A stretch of DNA of 64,000 nucleotides from Candidatus Desulfofervidaceae bacterium (GTDB lineage Bacteria > Desulfobacterota > Desulfofervidia > Desulfofervidales > Desulfofervidaceae): positions 127,777 through 191,776 of the forward strand of contig JAMOPI010000036.1 in NCBI GenBank assembly GCA_027064585.1. The letters are read 5' to 3'. The notes under the pieces were generated by a model. It was not told the DNA's origin, searched no databases, and saw only the letters and a program-made list of their open reading frames with translations. This document shows, one piece after another, positions 29,355 through 42,305 of the stretch. Each line of letters starts with the position of its first letter. Position 1 is the first letter of the stretch. Position numbers and translations under genes: made by a program.

Positions 29355-30206
29355 ATGATTTCTATCTTAATGTGGGTTGAACGTTTATTTGACTATCTCC
29401 AAGCCCAGTGGCAAAAACCTCGGACCCACCGGGTCATAGGTTCTATGATAACCGCTAGTTTTATCTTTGCCTTAGGTATCATTGAGCTTAATCGGCAGCA
29501 TTTGTTGTCTAGTCCCTTAAATGTATTTATTCCCACTAATCACTTGGTAGCCATCAAATGGGCCTTTACCTTTTCACTTGTATTTGAAGTTATTAGTCTT
29601 ATCCTTTCTTTAGCCGAATCAGTTTCTATTTCCGTTGGCAAACAATTTGAAATCTTTTCTCTTGTTCTCTTGCGGGATGCATTTAAGGTCTTTTCTCATC
29701 TTAATGAGCCGCTGGTTTGGAAAGAAATTAAGCAAGCCCTTCCCTCTATTGTCGCTCCGGCCATTGGGGCACTCTTTATTTTTGTCATCCTTGGATTCTA
29801 TTACAAGGTTCAACATCACGCTCCGGTTATTAAGGATGGGCAAAGTAAAGCTACCTTTATTTTACTGAAAAAGACTATGGCCCTTATTTTATTAATCAGT
29901 TTTATTACTATTAGCTTAAATAATCTTTGGGGATATTTAACTAAGGGACAGCCAGAAACGGCCTTTGAGATATTTTTTACATTACTTATTTTTAGCGATG
30001 TTTTAATTGTTTTAATTTCATTAGCTTACAGTACAAAATACTGCGTGGTCTTTAGAAACTCCGCTTTTGCCGTAGCTACCCTCTGTATCCGGTTGGGTTT
30101 TATTGCCCCGGTTATAATAAGTGCCCTTCTTGGTGTTGGTGCTGTCCTCTTTGCCCTTGGGGTTACTATTGTCTATAACAAATTTGCCTTAATGGAGGGT
30201 AAGTAA
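29355..30206 (+). CDS. Integral membrane protein of unknown function
   Basis: 283 residues, not recognised. It has about six or seven hydrophobic segments (around 29-43, 68-88, 130-150, 170-190, 207-227 and 240-275), few charges between them, and no catalytic motif or signal peptide. It follows the glycerate kinase by 27 bp on the same strand and may be in the gpg operon, so a solute-related membrane role is possible but unproven. Its 3' end overlaps cooC on the other strand by 18 bp. Confidence 0.55.
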   Translation: MISILMWVERLFDYLQAQWQKPRTHRVIGSMITASFIFALGIIELNRQHLLSSPLNVFIPTNHLVAIKWAFTFSLVFEVISLILSLAESVSISVGKQFEIFSLVLLRDAFKVFSHLNEPLVWKEIKQALPSIVAPAIGALFIFVILGFYYKVQHHAPVIKDGQSKATFILLKKTMALILLISFITISLNNLWGYLTKGQPETAFEIFFTLLIFSDVLIVLISLAYSTKYCVVFRNSAFAVATLCIRLGFIAPVIISALLGVGAVLFALGVTIVYNKFALMEGK

Positions 30207-31067
30207 TTCACACTTTTCCAGACAGCTAGCAATAGCTTCAATCGCTTGTGTAAGGGTTGATTCTGGGAATTGATTGTAAAAATCAATTACGGCCGGTTCC
30301 AAGTCAAATAGCTTGTCCTCTTGGGGAAGGATAAAGATGTGGTTTACTTGGTTTTCTAAATCAAATTTAGTCATGAGAGTTTGTGCTTTCTGTTTTTCTT
30401 TTTCGCTGGCAATCCGATTAAGCACTAGATGAATATTTTTAATGCCAATATCTTTAGCCAGTTTAACCGCATGGGCAGCTACAGCCATAGCATTAAACGT
30501 GGCATCAGTTACTACTAGGCACTGCGAGAATCCCTTGGCCAGTGCCCGGCCAAAGTGTTCTACTCCTGCTTGTGTATCTAGAAGAATCAATTCATCTTGA
30601 CGCAAAGAAATGTGTTTCATCACTGCATCAAGCAGCGCATTCTCTGGACAAAGACAACCAGTGGCCGGTTGTACAACCGTTCCCATGACCAAAAAACTCA
30701 ATTTATCATTAAGCCTTATGCCAAATCTTTCTACTACGTCCTCTACGGGCGGATTTAACCTTAAAAAACTCCCCCAGCCTGTGCCTGGCCTAGCCCCTGT
30801 TTTTTCTTCTATGTAATCCAGATTCTGACTTAAGGGTTTAAGCTCAGTGGCCTTTTCTAAAGGATAACCCAAGGCAAAAGGAAGATTCATCTGGGGATCT
30901 TCATCCACCGCCAGCACCTTATAACCCTTGTTAACAAATGATTGGGCAAGGAGGACGGTTAAGGTTGTTTTACCCGCTCCACCCTTTCCTGTGATAATTA
31001 CCTTAAAACCATTAGTAATTCCCTCTTTCCTTAGCGATTTAATCTCTTCTACCGTCCTCTTGCCCAT
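30189..31067 (-). CDS. cooC: CO dehydrogenase nickel-insertion ATPase CooC
   Basis: 292 residues, a MinD/SIMIBI-class P-loop ATPase. The deviant Walker A GKGGAGKTT near residue 27, VDEDPQMNLP, the CLCPENALL segment (a CxC that binds nickel or zinc in CooC dimers) and LLDTQAGVEHFGR are all present. CooC loads nickel into the C-cluster of CO dehydrogenase. It starts 9 bp after the cooS stop, so the pair is an operon. About 20 residues precede the usual N-terminus, so the true start may be slightly further in. Confidence 0.92.
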   Translation of the reverse strand: MGKRTVEEIKSLRKEGITNGFKVIITGKGGAGKTTLTVLLAQSFVNKGYKVLAVDEDPQMNLPFALGYPLEKATELKPLSQNLDYIEEKTGARPGTGWGSFLRLNPPVEDVVERFGIRLNDKLSFLVMGTVVQPATGCLCPENALLDAVMKHISLRQDELILLDTQAGVEHFGRALAKGFSQCLVVTDATFNAMAVAAHAVKLAKDIGIKNIHLVLNRIASEKEKQKAQTLMTKFDLENQVNHIFILPQEDKLFDLEPAVIDFYNQFPESTLTQAIEAIASCLEKCELLTLH

Positions 31068-31076
31068 AAACTCCTC

Positions 31077-32990
31077 CTAAATTCCTAGTGCCTTTCTCTT
31101 TTCCATAATAATTTCTTCTATTATATCTGCTGTTTTTATCGGATCTTCTTCAACGAAGAAATAACCACCAATTAGATCTTTAAGATCTGCGGTCAAAATT
31201 TTAACCACCGTTTCACTTCCAGCAATGGGTGGCATAGGCCACAAATGCACTGGAATACCTGAGGCTACAAAATATGTCCCGATAGAAACAGCCTTTTCTG
31301 ACATCCATTCAGGTGCCGATCCTACCAATGGGAGGTCTGAAATATCCACTTTCATATAATCCGCAATGGCTCCTGCCAATGTTAACATCCTTGAGCAATC
31401 AACGCAAGAACCCATGTGCAATACAGGCGGAATATTAAGTGCCTGACAAACTTCTCTTAAGCCATCTCCAGCCATTTCCTGGGCTTTAAGTTGCATCAAT
31501 CCTGCCTTAGCACAAGCAATGGCCCAGCAGCCGGTGCCGATGACCAGAATATTTCTTTTTATCAACTCCTTTGTAATATTCACGTGATTGTAGTCATGTC
31601 TTACCTTGGGATTGTTACATCCCACTATTCCTGCCACTCCTTTGATTTTACCGGCGGCAATGGCATCTACCAAAGGTTTGGGACTCCCACCTAAAGCGCT
31701 TAATATACCTTCAGTGGTAAACCCCACTATTGCTTCGGTTTTATAAGAGGGAATATAAACACGACTTTTATCCCGACAAGGAAACGCCTCTATGGCTGTT
31801 TTTACAATTTCCTTAGCCACAGCCGTAGCGTGTCTTTCATCAAATTGGATATGCAAAGAACCTGGAAATTTTGCTTGATCACTGGTGGAGATGAATTTAG
31901 TATGAAAGCACTCAGCCAATTGTCCAAGGGCAGGATAAATACATTGGACATCAACTACCACCGCTTCAACCGCTCCAGTCATTACGGCTAGTTCCTGATG
32001 TAAAACATTTCCCGCAATAGGTATACCCTGACGCATTAACAGTTCGTTACCCGTGCAACACATACCTACGACATTAACTCCCTTAGCACCGTATTTTTGG
32101 GCTAAATTTTGCATCTCCTCTGATTGGGCTACCTCTACAATCTTCTCTGATAAAATGGGCTCATGGCCATGGGCGACAATGTTCACATAGTCAGCATCAA
32201 TTACTCCCAGATTGGCCATGATTGTCTTTACGGTAGGGGTGCCAAACAAAACATCTTGAATTTCAGTAGCAATCAACGAACCCCCCCAGCCATCTCCTAG
32301 TGCCGCCCGCACTCCTTGAAACAAAAGAGATACCGGATCGTTATCTACACCGATATGTGTTCTGTGCATGATGTCTACGATCTCTCTATCAATGTTACGA
32401 GGGAAGACACCTATTTTTTTAGAAGTCTTTTCAAAAAGGACCTTCTCCAAATTCTGCCAGCATTCAATTCTTTTTTTAGGAGCATAGGAGAGAAGAAATT
32501 TAATAGGGGTATCGTCTTGTTTTCCATAGTCTTTCATGGCAATTTCAGCTACCTCTTTAGCCAATTCTTCAGGTTTTTTATCTGTAGAAATTCCCAGTTT
32601 GCTGGCAATTAATTTCAGCTTTTCTACATCTTTAATTTGATAATCCCTATTCTCCCCTTCAGCCACTTCTTTTAACGTCATGGCTAGGGGACGTCCGTGA
32701 TCAGAATGGGCAGCAGCTCCCGCGGCAATGGCCCGTATGAGATTTCTTGCCACAATAATGTCTGCTGTCGCTCCACAGGCACCTTTAGGTGTCTTTTTGG
32801 TAATACGGCAGGGCCCCATGGCACAGTTTTTACAACATACCCCTGCGCTTCCAAATTTACAATGTGGAGTCTGCGCATCTTCCCTATCCCAAGCCGTTTC
32901 ATATCCTCTGGCTTCAGCCAGCTTTAACATCTCCTGCGCGGCAGGATCGATACTCCTTTGTAAATACTTCTCTTGTCCTTCTGCCTTCAT
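31077..32990 (-). CDS. cooS: Anaerobic nickel-iron CO dehydrogenase catalytic subunit
   Basis: 637 residues, full length. It interconverts CO and CO2 with ferredoxin-type partners. Cysteine pattern CKFGSAGVCCKNCAMGPC near residue 42 supplies the B- and D-clusters. C-cluster ligand segments follow: HGHEP, MCCTGNE, VQCIYP, GCNNP, GTGCWAIACAKAG and MGSCVDCSR. The ATG at 32990 has an ideal AAGGAGG site; an upstream in-frame ATG is less likely. It is followed by cooC. No CooF, hydrogenase or acetyl-CoA synthase genes are in the window, so its pathway (Wood-Ljungdahl or CO scavenging) is open. Confidence 0.95.
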   Translation of the reverse strand: MKAEGQEKYLQRSIDPAAQEMLKLAEARGYETAWDREDAQTPHCKFGSAGVCCKNCAMGPCRITKKTPKGACGATADIIVARNLIRAIAAGAAAHSDHGRPLAMTLKEVAEGENRDYQIKDVEKLKLIASKLGISTDKKPEELAKEVAEIAMKDYGKQDDTPIKFLLSYAPKKRIECWQNLEKVLFEKTSKKIGVFPRNIDREIVDIMHRTHIGVDNDPVSLLFQGVRAALGDGWGGSLIATEIQDVLFGTPTVKTIMANLGVIDADYVNIVAHGHEPILSEKIVEVAQSEEMQNLAQKYGAKGVNVVGMCCTGNELLMRQGIPIAGNVLHQELAVMTGAVEAVVVDVQCIYPALGQLAECFHTKFISTSDQAKFPGSLHIQFDERHATAVAKEIVKTAIEAFPCRDKSRVYIPSYKTEAIVGFTTEGILSALGGSPKPLVDAIAAGKIKGVAGIVGCNNPKVRHDYNHVNITKELIKRNILVIGTGCWAIACAKAGLMQLKAQEMAGDGLREVCQALNIPPVLHMGSCVDCSRMLTLAGAIADYMKVDISDLPLVGSAPEWMSEKAVSIGTYFVASGIPVHLWPMPPIAGSETVVKILTADLKDLIGGYFFVEEDPIKTADIIEEIIMEKRKALGI

Positions 32991-33033
32991 GGCTAGACCT
33001 CCTTTTAGTAATTTTAACACTACTATTTCCTTG

Positions 33034-33121
33034 ATTTTATTAAATCTAGGTTTAAAACAAAAATGTAGAAAAAATGTATAAACTGAATAATAAGTGGATA
33101 AAAAGGGGAATAGGCGGATAA
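33034..33121 (-). promoter_or_regulatory. cooS control region: direct repeats and -10-like box
   Basis: Two 13-bp direct repeats lie exactly 20 bp apart at 33089-33101 and 33109-33121 (minus strand TTATCCACTTATT and TTATCCGCCTATT, 11 of 13 identical). Nearer cooS, the nine-base sequence TACATTTTT occurs twice at 11-bp spacing, and TAAAAT (33034-33039) could be a -10 box without a good -35. Same-phase direct repeats two helical turns apart are what LytTR regulators typically bind, and a LytTR gene lies next door. Confidence 0.4.
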
Positions 33122-33125
33122 GAAG

Positions 33126-33818
33126 TTAGCGGAGACCAAAAAGTTTCAGGAAGGTATTTATTTTACTTCTACTTAAAGGCAGATCTGAACCGTCCTTCAT
33201 TAAAATGCGATATCTGTTTTCAGTCTTTTTTAACTTCTGAACGGAATTTATATTGATGATAAAGCTTTTATGAATTCTCACAAACCGTTCAGGAGAAAGT
33301 TTGTTTTCAATCTTTCTCAGAGATAATGGACTTAAAAATTTCCTTTTCTGAGAGACCACCTCAGTATAATTCCCTCTAGCGGCAAAAAAATCAATATTTT
33401 TTACTTCTAAAAGTAAAAAGTCATCTCCTTCATATACCGGAAATTTGACAATAAAGTCCTCTTCATTGGTCAAAAGGGTAGTAACATCATAAAGCAGGGC
33501 CACAAAAGTGGCCTGACATTGACCATGAAGCAGGAAGACTTTACCTAGAAACATGATTTCTTTATCACTACCATTTTTATAAACCTTAATAACATAACTA
33601 CCACTTTTATTCTTCTCTACTGCCTCAGCGGTCATTTTTTGGATCTTGGCAAATGCTTGCGGAGAATGAAGCTGGGAGAGATTATAAGTTGACTCTAAAC
33701 TAATTCCAAAAAGTTCGCTTATGGTCTTATTTACGCAGAGAATGTCATAATTTCCATCAAATACAACAACACCTACCTTAAAGGTGCGCTTCAAAATGTC
33801 CAGCGTCAAAGAAAGCAT
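33126..33818 (-). CDS. PAS-LytTR regulator, RcoM-like (candidate CO sensor)
   Basis: 230 residues: an N-terminal PAS domain (about 5-115) and a C-terminal LytTR DNA-binding domain (about 130-230, with FFAARGNYTEVVSQ and FVRIHKSFIININSV). This is the architecture of RcoM, the haem-based CO regulator of Burkholderia, where a histidine in an LHPP-like motif binds haem. Here QLHSPQAF puts His51 at an equivalent place; the second ligand cannot be assigned. It sits directly upstream of cooS-cooC on the same strand. If it binds haem it would switch on CO oxidation. A generic redox PAS regulator is the alternative. Confidence 0.7.
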   Translation of the reverse strand: MLSLTLDILKRTFKVGVVVFDGNYDILCVNKTISELFGISLESTYNLSQLHSPQAFAKIQKMTAEAVEKNKSGSYVIKVYKNGSDKEIMFLGKVFLLHGQCQATFVALLYDVTTLLTNEEDFIVKFPVYEGDDFLLLEVKNIDFFAARGNYTEVVSQKRKFLSPLSLRKIENKLSPERFVRIHKSFIININSVQKLKKTENRYRILMKDGSDLPLSRSKINTFLKLFGLR

Positions 33819-36694: not shown

Positions 36695-39600
36695 TTACCT
36701 CCTTTTTTTCTTTGTCAACCACTCTTCTATCTTCTTCTTAAAGATAAAAGGATCAACTGGTTTAGCCAGATAATCATCACAACCTGCAGCTAAAACCTTT
36801 TCCCGATCTCCCCGCATAGCCCGAGCAGTTAAACCAATGATAGGTATATTTTTTAATGTAGGATCCTTTTTTAACCGCTGTGTCGCCTCATAGCCATCCA
36901 TTATCGGCATCAACATATCCATGATAATTAAATCAGGCTTTATCCTTTGTGCCTGTTCTATGGCTTGAACCCCATTTGGGGCTGTATGGATGGTGTAATT
37001 AGTATCCTTCAATGCCTCTTTTAAAAGAAAAAGATTATCCGGATTATCTTCTACAATAAGGATCTTAGCCGGGCCAGCAGAAGTTGTATCTAAAGATGGT
37101 TGAAGAGGTTTTTGGAGCGATTCTGTTTTAATTTCTGTTTCTGGATATAAAATCTGCCTTACAACTTTAATTAAGCTGGTCTTATCTATTTGCCCTTTCA
37201 GCAAAATTGCCTTAACATTTGGAGGAAATCGCCTTTTTTCTTCTTCAGTTAAGTCTATAGCAGAGAGTATAATAACCGGTATATCTTTCATTTTCTCATC
37301 TTTTTGTAACAATTCTAAAACCGTAAACCCATCCATTCCAGGCATCCTTAAGTCAAGGATGAGCAAATCAGGCCTGAATTTTTTGATAAACTCCAATCCC
37401 TTCTCTCCGGTATAGGCAAAAGATAACTCACAATTTTCGTCCTTAAGCAACACCTTCAACTCTTGAGTCACAATAGGATCATCGTCAATAATCAATATCT
37501 GCTTTTTTGTTCTCATTGAAGAAGGAACAGGCTTAGAAACTTTTTCTTTGCTCAGAAGAGCGGTCTTAATTTTTCCTTTCCAATCTTTACTTAATTTTTC
37601 CCTCTTTATAGGTCTCTTAGGAAGAATAACGGTAAACACAGAGCCTTTGTTTAATTTACTTTTTACCTTTATTTCTCCCCCTAGTAAATCAACCAATTTT
37701 TTGACAATACTTAAACCTAAACCAGTGCCACCATATTTTTTGGTAGTAGAGCCATCTACTTGCCGAAAGACGTCAAAGATATAGTCTAATGCCTCTTCAG
37801 GAATGCCAATGCCCGTATCTTTAACGCTTATAAGGATATTGCCGTCTTTTTCTTCTATAATCACTGCTACCTCACCCTTTTCGGTAAATTTAATCGCATT
37901 GCTTAATAGGTTGAGTAAAATCTGGCGGAGCTTTTCTGGATCTGTAACAATATAATCTACCTTTCCTTTAAATATACTTTTAAGAATCAGTCCTTTTTCC
38001 TCTGCTAATGGACGGACAGATTTAAGTAGTTCGTTAATAAATTCTTTTAGGAAAATTTTATTCCAAATAATTTCTACCTTTCCAGCTTCAATTTTTGATA
38101 GATCCAGAACGTCGTTAATCAAGGCCAAGAGATTTTCACCGTTACGCTCAATAATATCCAAATAATCACGCTGTTTTTCGGTTATTTTACCCCCTACACC
38201 TGCCTTTAACAATTTGGTCATACCCAGAATAGCATTAAGGGGAGTTCTTAACTCATGAGACATATTAGAGAGAAATTCAGACTTAAGCCGATTGGCCTCT
38301 TCTACCTGGCGTGTCTTTTCCTCCAAGGCCTTCTTTTGGGCACTCAGTTCTTCGGCCTGCGCCTTAAGTTCTTCGTTTAAGGCTATCAATTCCTCTCCTT
38401 GGGCCTTTAATTCCTCATTCTGAGAGATCAAAAGTTCGTTCTTTTCTTGTAATTCTTTGGCCAAGATTTCAACCCGTTGATAGCTCAACGCATGGTCAAT
38501 TCCTACTCCAATGGAGTCAGCGACGATGTTTAAAAACTGAAAGAGTTGTTCTGAAAAAGGACTAAAGGCAGCCAGTTCTAGCACACCAATAAGTTGATCT
38601 TTAAACATAATAGGCAAACAGACAATATATTGAGGCAATCGCTCTCCACTACCTGAAGTCACCTTAAAATAATCAGAAGGGACATCGGAGACCACAATTG
38701 TTTCCCTCTCTTGTGCACATTGACCAGGGAGCCCTTCACCCAATTTTAAAACAGGAACCTTTTTCTTATCCAAGGCATAAGCAGCCATGGGTTTTAATTG
38801 TCCGTCTTTGTGTAAATAAATTACTCCCAATTGACTTTTTGTATGATGGGCAACCTTTGTTAAAACATCTTCAAGTAAAGGCTGAAGTTCAATTATTTGG
38901 CTTAAGGAAGTTAAAATGTCAGTATAGGCCCGCTGCGTGGTAAGGGTAAGATGAAGGTCTTTAGTTTTTTTCTCTAACTCTTGGATAAACTTCTTTCTTT
39001 CCGTAATATCTACAAATATTTCTATAATACCAATGACTTTTCCCTTACTATCCTTAAAAGGGGTGCCAAAACACTGGCATGGGATTTCCCTTCCATCAGG
39101 TGTAATTCGCACTTCTTCTCGGGCAACCTTTTGGCGGCCTTCTAAGACTAGATGCAAGGTACAATCTTTTGTTCGGCAATAAGAACACCTGAACAGCTTG
39201 TAACACTTTTCCCCGATAGCCTTTTCGGTGCTAACTCCCACTAATTTACTCATGGCCTTGTTTTGACTTATTACTTTAAACTTGGCATCAACTACCCGAA
39301 TAGGGGTAGGCACACCGTTATAAATTTGATTCAATTCGTTAAACAGCCTTTCAATTTCTTCTTGCGTGCTTTTAATCTTTTCTGTCATCTGGTTAAAAAC
39401 ATTGGCCAACTCTCCTATTTCATCTCTTGTTTTTATTTCTACTTTAGTATCTAAATTTCCTTGACCAATGGCCTTTGCCGCCAAACTAAGAGTAAGTATA
39501 GGCCTGCTAATGAAATGAGAAAGGAGATATGCTAGTCCAATGCCTAGTAGACTAACTAACCCCATTACACCAGCTACTAGTTTAAGGATATGGTGAACCC

Positions 39601-40946: not shown

Positions 40947-42305
40947 TTAAACGACCTTGAAGGCCTCAACTTGTTTTATAATCTCAGGTATTTTTTCAAT
41001 TAGAACATCTACCTCTAATGCCTTTAAATTCAAAAGATTTAAGGCCTGGGGATGAATAGGATTAGTCAAACCGGCCACCCCACATCCTATGCCGGCTAGA
41101 CGACAGACAACATCTGCGATGTGCACCATGGCCACAACAGCCGGCGCCTCTTGAGCCTCATGGGGAGCATGGTGAAAGGCAATGGCTTCTCTCAATACGC
41201 CGGGTAAATACCACTGTTGGGCCATCATCTCTCCTACCTGAGGGTGAGTATAGCCAAGAATTTCTTTTTCTGCCTCTAGAAAAGACTTTTTTTCTTTAAG
41301 CACTTTTCTCATCACCAAATGAAATTTATCCGCTGCCACTTGATCCAAAATAATTTTGCCAATGTCATGTAGAAGTCCAGCAGTGAATACCACTTCTGGT
41401 TCTGGATACTGCTTTTCTTTTGCTATTAACTCAGCTATAAAGGCACAGCCTAGTGCATGTTCAAAAAACTCGCCCTGCTTTAAAGAATAGGCGTTTATCC
41501 TTGGAGCTAAAATGTCTTTAAAAGAGAGAGAAACAATTATCCTTTTAATAGCATTTAATCCTAACAGTGTAATTCCCTGGCTTAGATTAGAAACCCGTTG
41601 GGCTAAACCGTAATAAGGGGAATTGCAGATTTTAAGGATGTTGGCTGTAAGGGCCTGGTCCTGATAAATCTCCCTTTTTATTTCCTCCACACTAAAAGGA
41701 TCACTTTCAATGATCTTTAAAACTCTGTTTACAGTTTTAGCCATGGGTTTAAGCTGGTCAATTTTTTGGAGAAGTACCTTTAATGTTACTTCTTCAACTT
41801 TTAACGGAGATACAGGGGCAAGAGCGGCTTCACGCAGCCTGTAACCAATAAATTTTATTTCTGTCGTTCCATCCCTTATATATAAACGAAGGAGGCGGCC
41901 GAAGTTACCGCCTATATCTTCTTTTAAAATAGGAATATTCTCTTGTTTTAAAATCTCTTTTACCTTAGTGATGTTGCGCTGGCCAATATTTATATCTGTA
42001 TCTTGAACAATAGAAGCCCCTCCGGCGATAGTAGCTTCCAGTCGTTCTTTAGACGCCCCAGCCTTTAGCATTTCTTTAATAAGATAAGGTATACCAGAAT
42101 GGGCATACTTGGTCGGAGCATTGGTTTCTTTTTCTTCACTACCTTGGGGTAAAACAATATGCACCATTCCCCCTATGTGAGAAAAAGAATCGTAGAGAGC
42201 TATTCCTACACAAGAACCCAAACAAGTTTCTATAACTTCATTTGAAGCAGAGCTTACATAAACCCCGCTAAGAGAAAGAAAATAATACTTCTCTTCAAAC
42301 GTCAT
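40947..42305 (-). CDS. CheD-HDOD fusion protein
   Basis: 452 residues. Residues 1-155 match CheD, a chemoreceptor glutamine deamidase: ETCLGSCVGIALYD holds the catalytic cysteine, GGMVHIVLP the histidine. From about 185 to the end is an HDOD domain (VLKIIESDPFSVEEI, ICNSPYYG, and GLLHDIGKIIL with an HD pair). HDOD proteins are signalling domains without confirmed nuclease or phosphodiesterase activity in most cases. The two domains share one frame without a visible break. It sits in a chemosensory-like cluster with cheR. The fusion could link receptor adaptation to another output. Confidence 0.85.
   Translation of the reverse strand: MTFEEKYYFLSLSGVYVSSASNEVIETCLGSCVGIALYDSFSHIGGMVHIVLPQGSEEKETNAPTKYAHSGIPYLIKEMLKAGASKERLEATIAGGASIVQDTDINIGQRNITKVKEILKQENIPILKEDIGGNFGRLLRLYIRDGTTEIKFIGYRLREAALAPVSPLKVEEVTLKVLLQKIDQLKPMAKTVNRVLKIIESDPFSVEEIKREIYQDQALTANILKICNSPYYGLAQRVSNLSQGITLLGLNAIKRIIVSLSFKDILAPRINAYSLKQGEFFEHALGCAFIAELIAKEKQYPEPEVVFTAGLLHDIGKIILDQVAADKFHLVMRKVLKEKKSFLEAEKEILGYTHPQVGEMMAQQWYLPGVLREAIAFHHAPHEAQEAPAVVAMVHIADVVCRLAGIGCGVAGLTNPIHPQALNLLNLKALEVDVLIEKIPEIIKQVEAFKVV

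Follow-up and report, generated by a model that had tools for sequence, protein, structure and literature searches.

The fused gene and its cluster

Within a 64,000-nt window (the whole stretch of DNA that was analysed; GCA_027064585.1, contig JAMOPI010000036.1, positions 127,777 to 191,776 of the forward strand) from Candidatus Desulfofervidaceae bacterium (Desulfobacterota; Desulfofervidia; Desulfofervidales), we examined a gene that encodes CheD and an HDOD domain in one protein and stands in a cluster with genes for a CheR methyltransferase and a hybrid histidine kinase (Table 1; all coordinates are window positions). This conserved gene set suggests that the kinase may be tuned by reversible methylation, as chemotaxis receptors are.

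The fusion open reading frame (ORF) runs uninterrupted from ATG to stop over 452 aa. Its first part matches the Pfam model CheD (PF03975) at residues 52-151 (102.1 bits, cut-off 25; 2.4e-29) and its second part matches HDOD (PF08668) at residues 187-381 (188.1 bits, cut-off 22.9; 1.6e-55; profile positions 3-196 of 196), which bears out the sequence-only reading that CheD is joined in frame to a full HDOD domain. The NCBIfam CheD equivalog cut-offs are missed, with a best score of 134.8 of 240. A sequence search of the PDB placed residues 23-154 with Thermotoga maritima CheD (2f9z_C; 4.2e-25) and residues 177-407 with a Geobacter HDOD structure (3hc1; 3.1e-32), and Foldseek, given the AlphaFold model of the fusion, returned the same two structures (3hc1, 3.1e-12; 2f9z_C, 1.1e-5). 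The CheD half modelled alone reached a mean predicted local distance difference test score (pLDDT) of 89; in the full-length model the HDOD half was good and the CheD half, covered by just two alignment rows, was poor, and the orientation of the domains was therefore not used. A frameshift between two separate genes, a chimera or an assembly artefact is excluded, because the frame is open and the identical joint is found in fusion ORFs of 14 further genomes at 35-75% identity. The fusion is thus real.

The CheD Cys and His and the HD-type histidines were likewise found in place, in line with the sequence-only reading, in which the CheD Cys and His and the HD pair of HDOD appeared intact. In the alignment, T. 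maritima CheD has its Cys and His, which we take to be the catalytic residues, opposite C32 and H49, and these two are invariant in all 15 fusions of group A (the best-matching fusions, at least 36% identical, in a search of 395 genomes) and in all 11 rows of a second alignment; the two alignments have two rows in common and together cover 24 distinct fusions. For the Thr of the presumed catalytic triad, T27 is a candidate that aligns one residue away from the Thr of T. maritima CheD; it is invariant in group A and is not retained in a further set of fusions, group B. On the HDOD side, H283, H313-D314, H354 and H378-H379 are invariant in group A (15/15), the last Asp (D398) is Asn in 4 of the 15, and H379 differs in one row of the 11-row alignment. 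The invariant histidines, together with an HDIG model scoring over its cut-off (37.6 versus 27.6 bits), could also be credited to a different reading, in which HDOD is itself the output, either a phosphohydrolase or a nucleotide-binding effector, and is merely localised by the CheD half. We consider this very unlikely, given the replaced Asp in those four fusions, the occurrence of HDOD behind CheD in che operons that have a CheY-like gene, and the report, in the available text of PMC6543031, that HDOD is without catalytic (phosphodiesterase) activity. The mechanism of HDOD is described there as not established.

Among the neighbours, the window CheR matches the Pfam models CheR (159.3 bits; 9.9e-47) and CheR_N (41.1 bits; 1.4e-10), both with cut-offs of 27, and the hybrid kinase carries, in order, an N-terminal sensor part, HAMP, PAS, GAF, a coil, HisKA, HATPase and two REC domains. 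The HTH_17-REC protein is likely the DNA-binding output of the cluster. CheA, CheW and a chemoreceptor are missing from the window cluster, which is therefore not a Che pathway by membership; the setting first described, beside cheR and a hybrid kinase and without chemoreceptors, holds for the window, and four matches to methyl-accepting chemotaxis proteins (MCPs) lie elsewhere in the genome. The genome as a whole has these 4 MCP matches, 2 CheR, 2 CheD and 10 HDOD matches, with one frame containing two of the latter. Its main che operon, separate from the window cluster, reads CheW-PilZ-CheR-CheD-HDOD-REC-CheX-CheB; it resembles the cluster in having CheR, CheD and HDOD in the same order with HDOD directly behind CheD, but differs in that CheD and HDOD are separate, in having CheW, a CheY-like REC protein, CheX and CheB, and in the branch to which its CheR belongs. 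A promoter and terminator scan gave signals no better than shuffles.

Table 1. Features of the CheD-HDOD cluster (window positions)
Feature	Position	Strand	Remarks
HTH_17 (MerR/excisionase-like) + REC protein, 189 aa	42308..42877	minus	stop 2 bp before fusion start
CheD-HDOD fusion, 452 aa	40947..42305	minus	one ORF; CheD ~8-160, linker, HDOD ~175-445
CheR methyltransferase, 290 aa	40057..40929	minus	start 17 bp past fusion stop
Hybrid histidine kinase, 1121 aa	36695..40060	minus	start overlaps cheR by 4 bp
Coil before HisKA, four heptad-spaced EE pairs	38330..38431	minus	~residues 544-577 of the hybrid kinase; proposed CheR/CheD substrate
REC-HisKA-HATPase protein, 377 aa	35321..36454	minus	conserved as last cluster gene; 240 bp past hybrid kinase

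Recurrence of the fusion and of its surroundings

Fusions were searched for in 59 relatives and then in 395 genomes of the phylum. At least 51 stop-free fused ORFs were found in at least 49 of the 395 genomes, a lower bound, as stop-free matches spanning both domains were counted by hand among the matches listed and at most four candidates were scored per genome. The fusion is thus recurrent across the phylum, which excludes a unique oddity, and in group A it has constant cheR-kinase surroundings. There, cheR follows directly behind the fusion in 15/15 genomes, and the hybrid kinase comes next in all 12 in which the sequence continues (three contigs stop after CheR), with the exceptions that in G076 an HTH-REC gene lies between CheR and the kinase and that in G004 the kinase is a 205-codon start. 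The REC-kinase follows the hybrid kinase in 10/10 loci with room for it, and the HTH-REC gene is present in 10 of the 15 group A loci and absent from four, the remaining contig being too short. Among the nine group B fusions that were viewed with wide flanks (L048-L051, L097-L101), none has an adjoining CheR, so that a kinase module cannot be deduced from the presence of a fusion by itself; L098 does have a che-type CheD/CheR, at a distance of several kb from the fusion. G002, a single-contig genome of the same family as the host, has HDOD-only matches, one separate CheD and no fusion, and the module is thus not universal in the family.

The pairing of the two domains was further examined in 31 CheD loci, comprising the 30 best-scoring among those listed and L002 of the host genome. 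An HDOD gene lies directly downstream of CheD in 17 of them, one more is the window fusion, and 13 are without it (one at a contig edge); the two genes overlap by 4 bp in the 13 resolved pairs. Since HDOD so often partners cheD in the che operons of the phylum, the pairing is not exotic; it is more ordinary than first thought, and its setting is more interesting. Adjoining CheD and HDOD genes also occur, among the matches listed, in metagenome-assembled genomes (MAGs) labelled KSB1, Actinomycetota, Phycisphaerae, Spirochaetes and Nitrospiria. In the Nitrospiria MAG L194 (8761-13901), a stop codon separates CheD from HDOD, and CheR and a kinase that has the four-heptad coil of the module kinases follow; this locus represents the module outside the phylum. 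Whether as neighbours or as one protein, the CheD-HDOD pairing provides a concrete partner for HDOD.

In a CheD tree, the fused CheDs lie outside the main che-operon CheD group, and group A itself needs four changes. A recent fusion of the host's own che-operon cheD with HDOD is unsupported in view of this placement. Two further arrangements were observed: in one genome a CheD-HDOD fusion (L096, 7359-10073) directly adjoins a cheD-HDOD pair that is split and has the same orientation, and in the Thermosulfurimonas MAG L216 (8965-9438) a CheD adjoining HDOD has Glu in place of the usual active-site His and, judging by this replacement, is possibly non-catalytic.

The kinase coil and the CheR branch

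All 11 full-length module kinases have four [EQ]E pairs at exact heptad spacing before HisKA, and the same four heptads occur in the L134 and L135 kinases, whose contigs end short of CheR. When the 95-aa segment of each of the 11 kinases was shuffled, a four-heptad chain was reached in 0-2 of 2000 shuffles. Mean pairwise identity among the module kinases is 0.68 for the coil and 0.72 for its heptads, values in the range of HisKA (0.70) and HATPase (0.64); the REC domains reach 0.48 and 0.61, and the N-terminal part, HAMP, PAS and GAF reach 0.39-0.41.

Control kinases that resemble the module kinase were taken from a search of 148 genomes and their surroundings inspected; the 58 non-module control regions were hand-picked from the upper part of the listing (60 fetched, two being module kinases). 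The control set comprised 63 non-module kinases below 1e-50, of which nine with less than 900 bases of flank were left out, and kinases weaker than 1e-50, including L162, were left out of the association count. By the criterion of a CheR on the same strand within 300 bp, 7 of the resulting 54 have an adjoining CheR and 47 do not. Chains of at least two [EQ]E pairs were found in 6/7 CheR-adjoining kinases and in 6/47 others (Fisher p 0.0002), and chains of at least three in 3/7 and 0/47 (p 0.0014), in a test on events that are not independent.

The CheR proteins themselves point in the same direction. In addition to the window, 40 further loci with standalone-sized frames were hand-picked down a ranking of CheRs from the 59 genomes, and the 41 CheRs in these 40 loci divide into 29 with CheW, CheA or MCP within 5 kb, 2 with a hybrid kinase and CheB, and 10 with none of these. 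A 78-row tree joined the 29 with 14 from che operons found earlier (43 che-operon CheRs; some of the 14 were classed by CheD, HDOD or CheB neighbours) and included 10 kinase-linked rows chosen non-randomly (7 via kinase similarity, 2 via the CheR sample and 1, L194, via the fusion). One branch (96/82) holds the 15 module CheRs, the 10 kinase-linked CheRs and 4 of the 10 orphans, and none of the 43 che-operon CheRs sampled. By eye, the module CheRs also have a short insertion before the CRN motif that is missing from the che-operon CheRs displayed in the alignment. For the four orphans on the branch (L299 6975, L301 7185, L304 6838 and L311 3564), neither a kinase nor a che gene is evident among the adjoining genes, as judged by eye from the first 70 residues of the neighbours.

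Three loci on the same branch, L173 (6835-11935), L308 (CheR 662) and L310 (CheR 7276), are kinase-CheR-CheB clusters in which no CheA, CheW or MCP was detected nearby. The kinase lies 101 bp from CheR in L310 and 616 bp away in L308, with a receiver gene between, and the L308 and L310 kinases have three EE heptads each. These clusters are a CheB-bearing counterpart of the window module, with CheB there and CheD-HDOD here.

This distribution bears on the possibility that the four chemoreceptors of the host are the targets of CheR and CheD-HDOD, acting in trans, with the kinase cluster only timing the production or activity of these enzymes. The genome does hold four MCP matches and a che operon, an MCP lies within 8 kb of the module in 4 of the 15 group A loci and CheW in one (all on the opposite strand), and the CheD substrates described in the available parts of PMC3513319 and PMC3579733 are receptors. 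Set against this, the main operon is already equipped with a CheR, a CheD, an HDOD and a CheB, the window CheR belongs to a branch that holds none of the che-operon CheRs sampled, the fused CheD falls outside the main che-operon CheD group, and the strand that carries the module has neither MCP nor CheW nearby at any of the 15 loci; we therefore regard action on the receptors as unlikely. The sequence-only reading had suggested that, through the fusion, receptor adaptation could be coupled to some other signalling output. The direction of that suggestion stands, and its target probably does not: because CheR sits on a kinase-linked branch and the coil is conserved and resembles a methylation helix, the likely target is the adjoining hybrid kinase rather than a chemoreceptor.

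Candidate adaptation of the hybrid kinase

By analogy, the cluster would work like the adaptation branch of chemotaxis. The hybrid kinase would sense a signal via its N-terminal, PAS and GAF part and relay it through the Glu/Gln-rich coil to HisKA. CheR would methylate Glu residues of the coil, and the CheD half would remove the methyl groups and/or convert Gln to Glu there, in place of CheB; alternatively, CheD may bind the coil, as B. subtilis CheD does with receptors. HDOD would be the regulatory half, reporting a nucleotide or partner signal to CheD, with cyclic di-GMP (c-di-GMP) as the leading candidate, and the REC domains would pass the output to the HTH-REC protein and the REC-kinase. 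The kinase is proposed as the substrate because the cluster offers no other plausible one, the CheR branch is separate and the coil is strongly constrained. Overall, we put the chance somewhat below even that the cluster is a kinase-dedicated adaptation module in which CheR methylates, and CheD-HDOD deamidates or demethylates, the kinase coil, with the substrate, the activities, the HDOD ligand and the output all predicted. Slightly more tentative is the idea of a methyl-accepting histidine kinase: a two-component hybrid kinase of the ordinary type, as opposed to a chemoreceptor/CheA complex, would gain sensory memory as CheR methylates a four-heptad Glu coil and CheD takes the methyl groups off again, with an HDOD-gated eraser.

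Deamidase and methylesterase activity are ascribed to T. maritima CheD in the available portion of PMC3579733. The role of HDOD is the least certain step of the mechanism; a nucleotide-sensing role is plausible because the YbaK-HDOD protein SadB has c-di-GMP as a ligand and phosphodiesterase activity is reported to be missing from HDOD (available text of PMC6543031), and in several bacteria HDOD proteins are tied to motility (PMC11004494, in the part available). CheD might instead be a docking part on the kinase coil or on CheR, switched by an HDOD that senses c-di-GMP or another nucleotide, with methylation a side issue. In B. subtilis, receptor binding by CheD is believed to be what activates the kinase (PMC3513319, in the part available), and the host main che operon has a PilZ gene, both of which would suit such a role; a pure docking domain, however, would not need the CheD Cys and His that are invariant in 24 distinct fusions, and among the genes of the window cluster no PilZ was noted. 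Docking in this form seems to us improbable.

Other points count against the proposal that the kinase coil is methylated and demethylated by the cluster's own enzymes. Although no CheA or CheB was found within 8 kb of cheR in the 15 group A loci, five of these are whole contigs of less than 8 kb and CheA was sought via a CheW-domain query in long frames only. The opposite-strand MCP genes near 4 of the 15 module loci belong here as well, and the host CheB could act on the module in trans. Shared descent may tie kinase, coil and CheR together, in which case the association of coil and CheR was counted on non-independent events. Under a stricter, MCP-style pattern, [EQ][EQ]xx[AST], 13 module kinases score 2-5, 38 MCPs score 0-2, and the seven CheR-adjoining controls (0-1) do no better than the other 47 (0-1); this pattern singles out the module and gives no support to a CheR association beyond it. 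Because the MCPs themselves score just 0-2, the coil motif cannot be taken as a validated predictor of methylation. The EE pairs of the kinase also seem to lie in a coil register different from that of MCP methylation sites. L162, a 355-aa kinase fragment, has a chain of four without a detected CheR, and signal transmission by itself could explain why a coil in front of HisKA is conserved.

Among known systems, the nearest described arrangement is cfcABC(DE) of Pseudomonas: in P. putida cfcABCDE, the hybrid kinase CfcA is accompanied by the CheB/CheR pair CfcB/CfcC, which is not involved in chemotaxis. The likeness lies in a hybrid kinase next to CheR, with no MCP mentioned in the available text of PMC4951495; the difference is that cfcABCDE has CheB, where the module has CheD-HDOD and no CheB nearby, and that CheD, HDOD and kinase methylation go unmentioned in that text. 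The alpha-group che clusters of Geobacter are similar in being mcp-less and in each having a standalone HD-domain protein of unassigned role, but they contain CheA, CheW, CheB and CheR, and no CheD-HD fusion is described in the available part of PMC2577667. T. maritima CheD (2f9z_C), HDOD 3hc1 and SadB (9qzk_A) share domain folds and motif residues with the fusion, but none is a CheD-HDOD fusion, SadB combining HDOD with a YbaK-like domain (PMC6543031, available text). In the open-licence literature, no paper was found that names CheD together with HDOD, and the cfc paper was the only one found on CheR beside kinases, in a search that may have missed a report of kinase methylation by CheR.

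Chemotaxis-style adaptation by reversible methylation is usually attributed to chemoreceptors. Should an ordinary sensor kinase be a target of CheR and CheD, two-component signalling would have access to precise adaptation, and kinase-adjoining CheR genes would gain a testable role. If the methyl-accepting kinase is real, the kinase-CheR-CheB clusters would apply its principle in a second way, with CheB as the eraser.

Elsewhere in the window, the region 30189-33818 encodes an anaerobic carbon monoxide (CO) dehydrogenase catalytic subunit (TIGR01702, 764.9 bits), an ATPase with weak MinD/ParA-type matches, and a small regulator whose C-terminal half weakly resembles LytTR-type response regulators. 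The ATPase looks CooC-like, and the small regulator invites comparison with a PAS-LytTR CO sensor.
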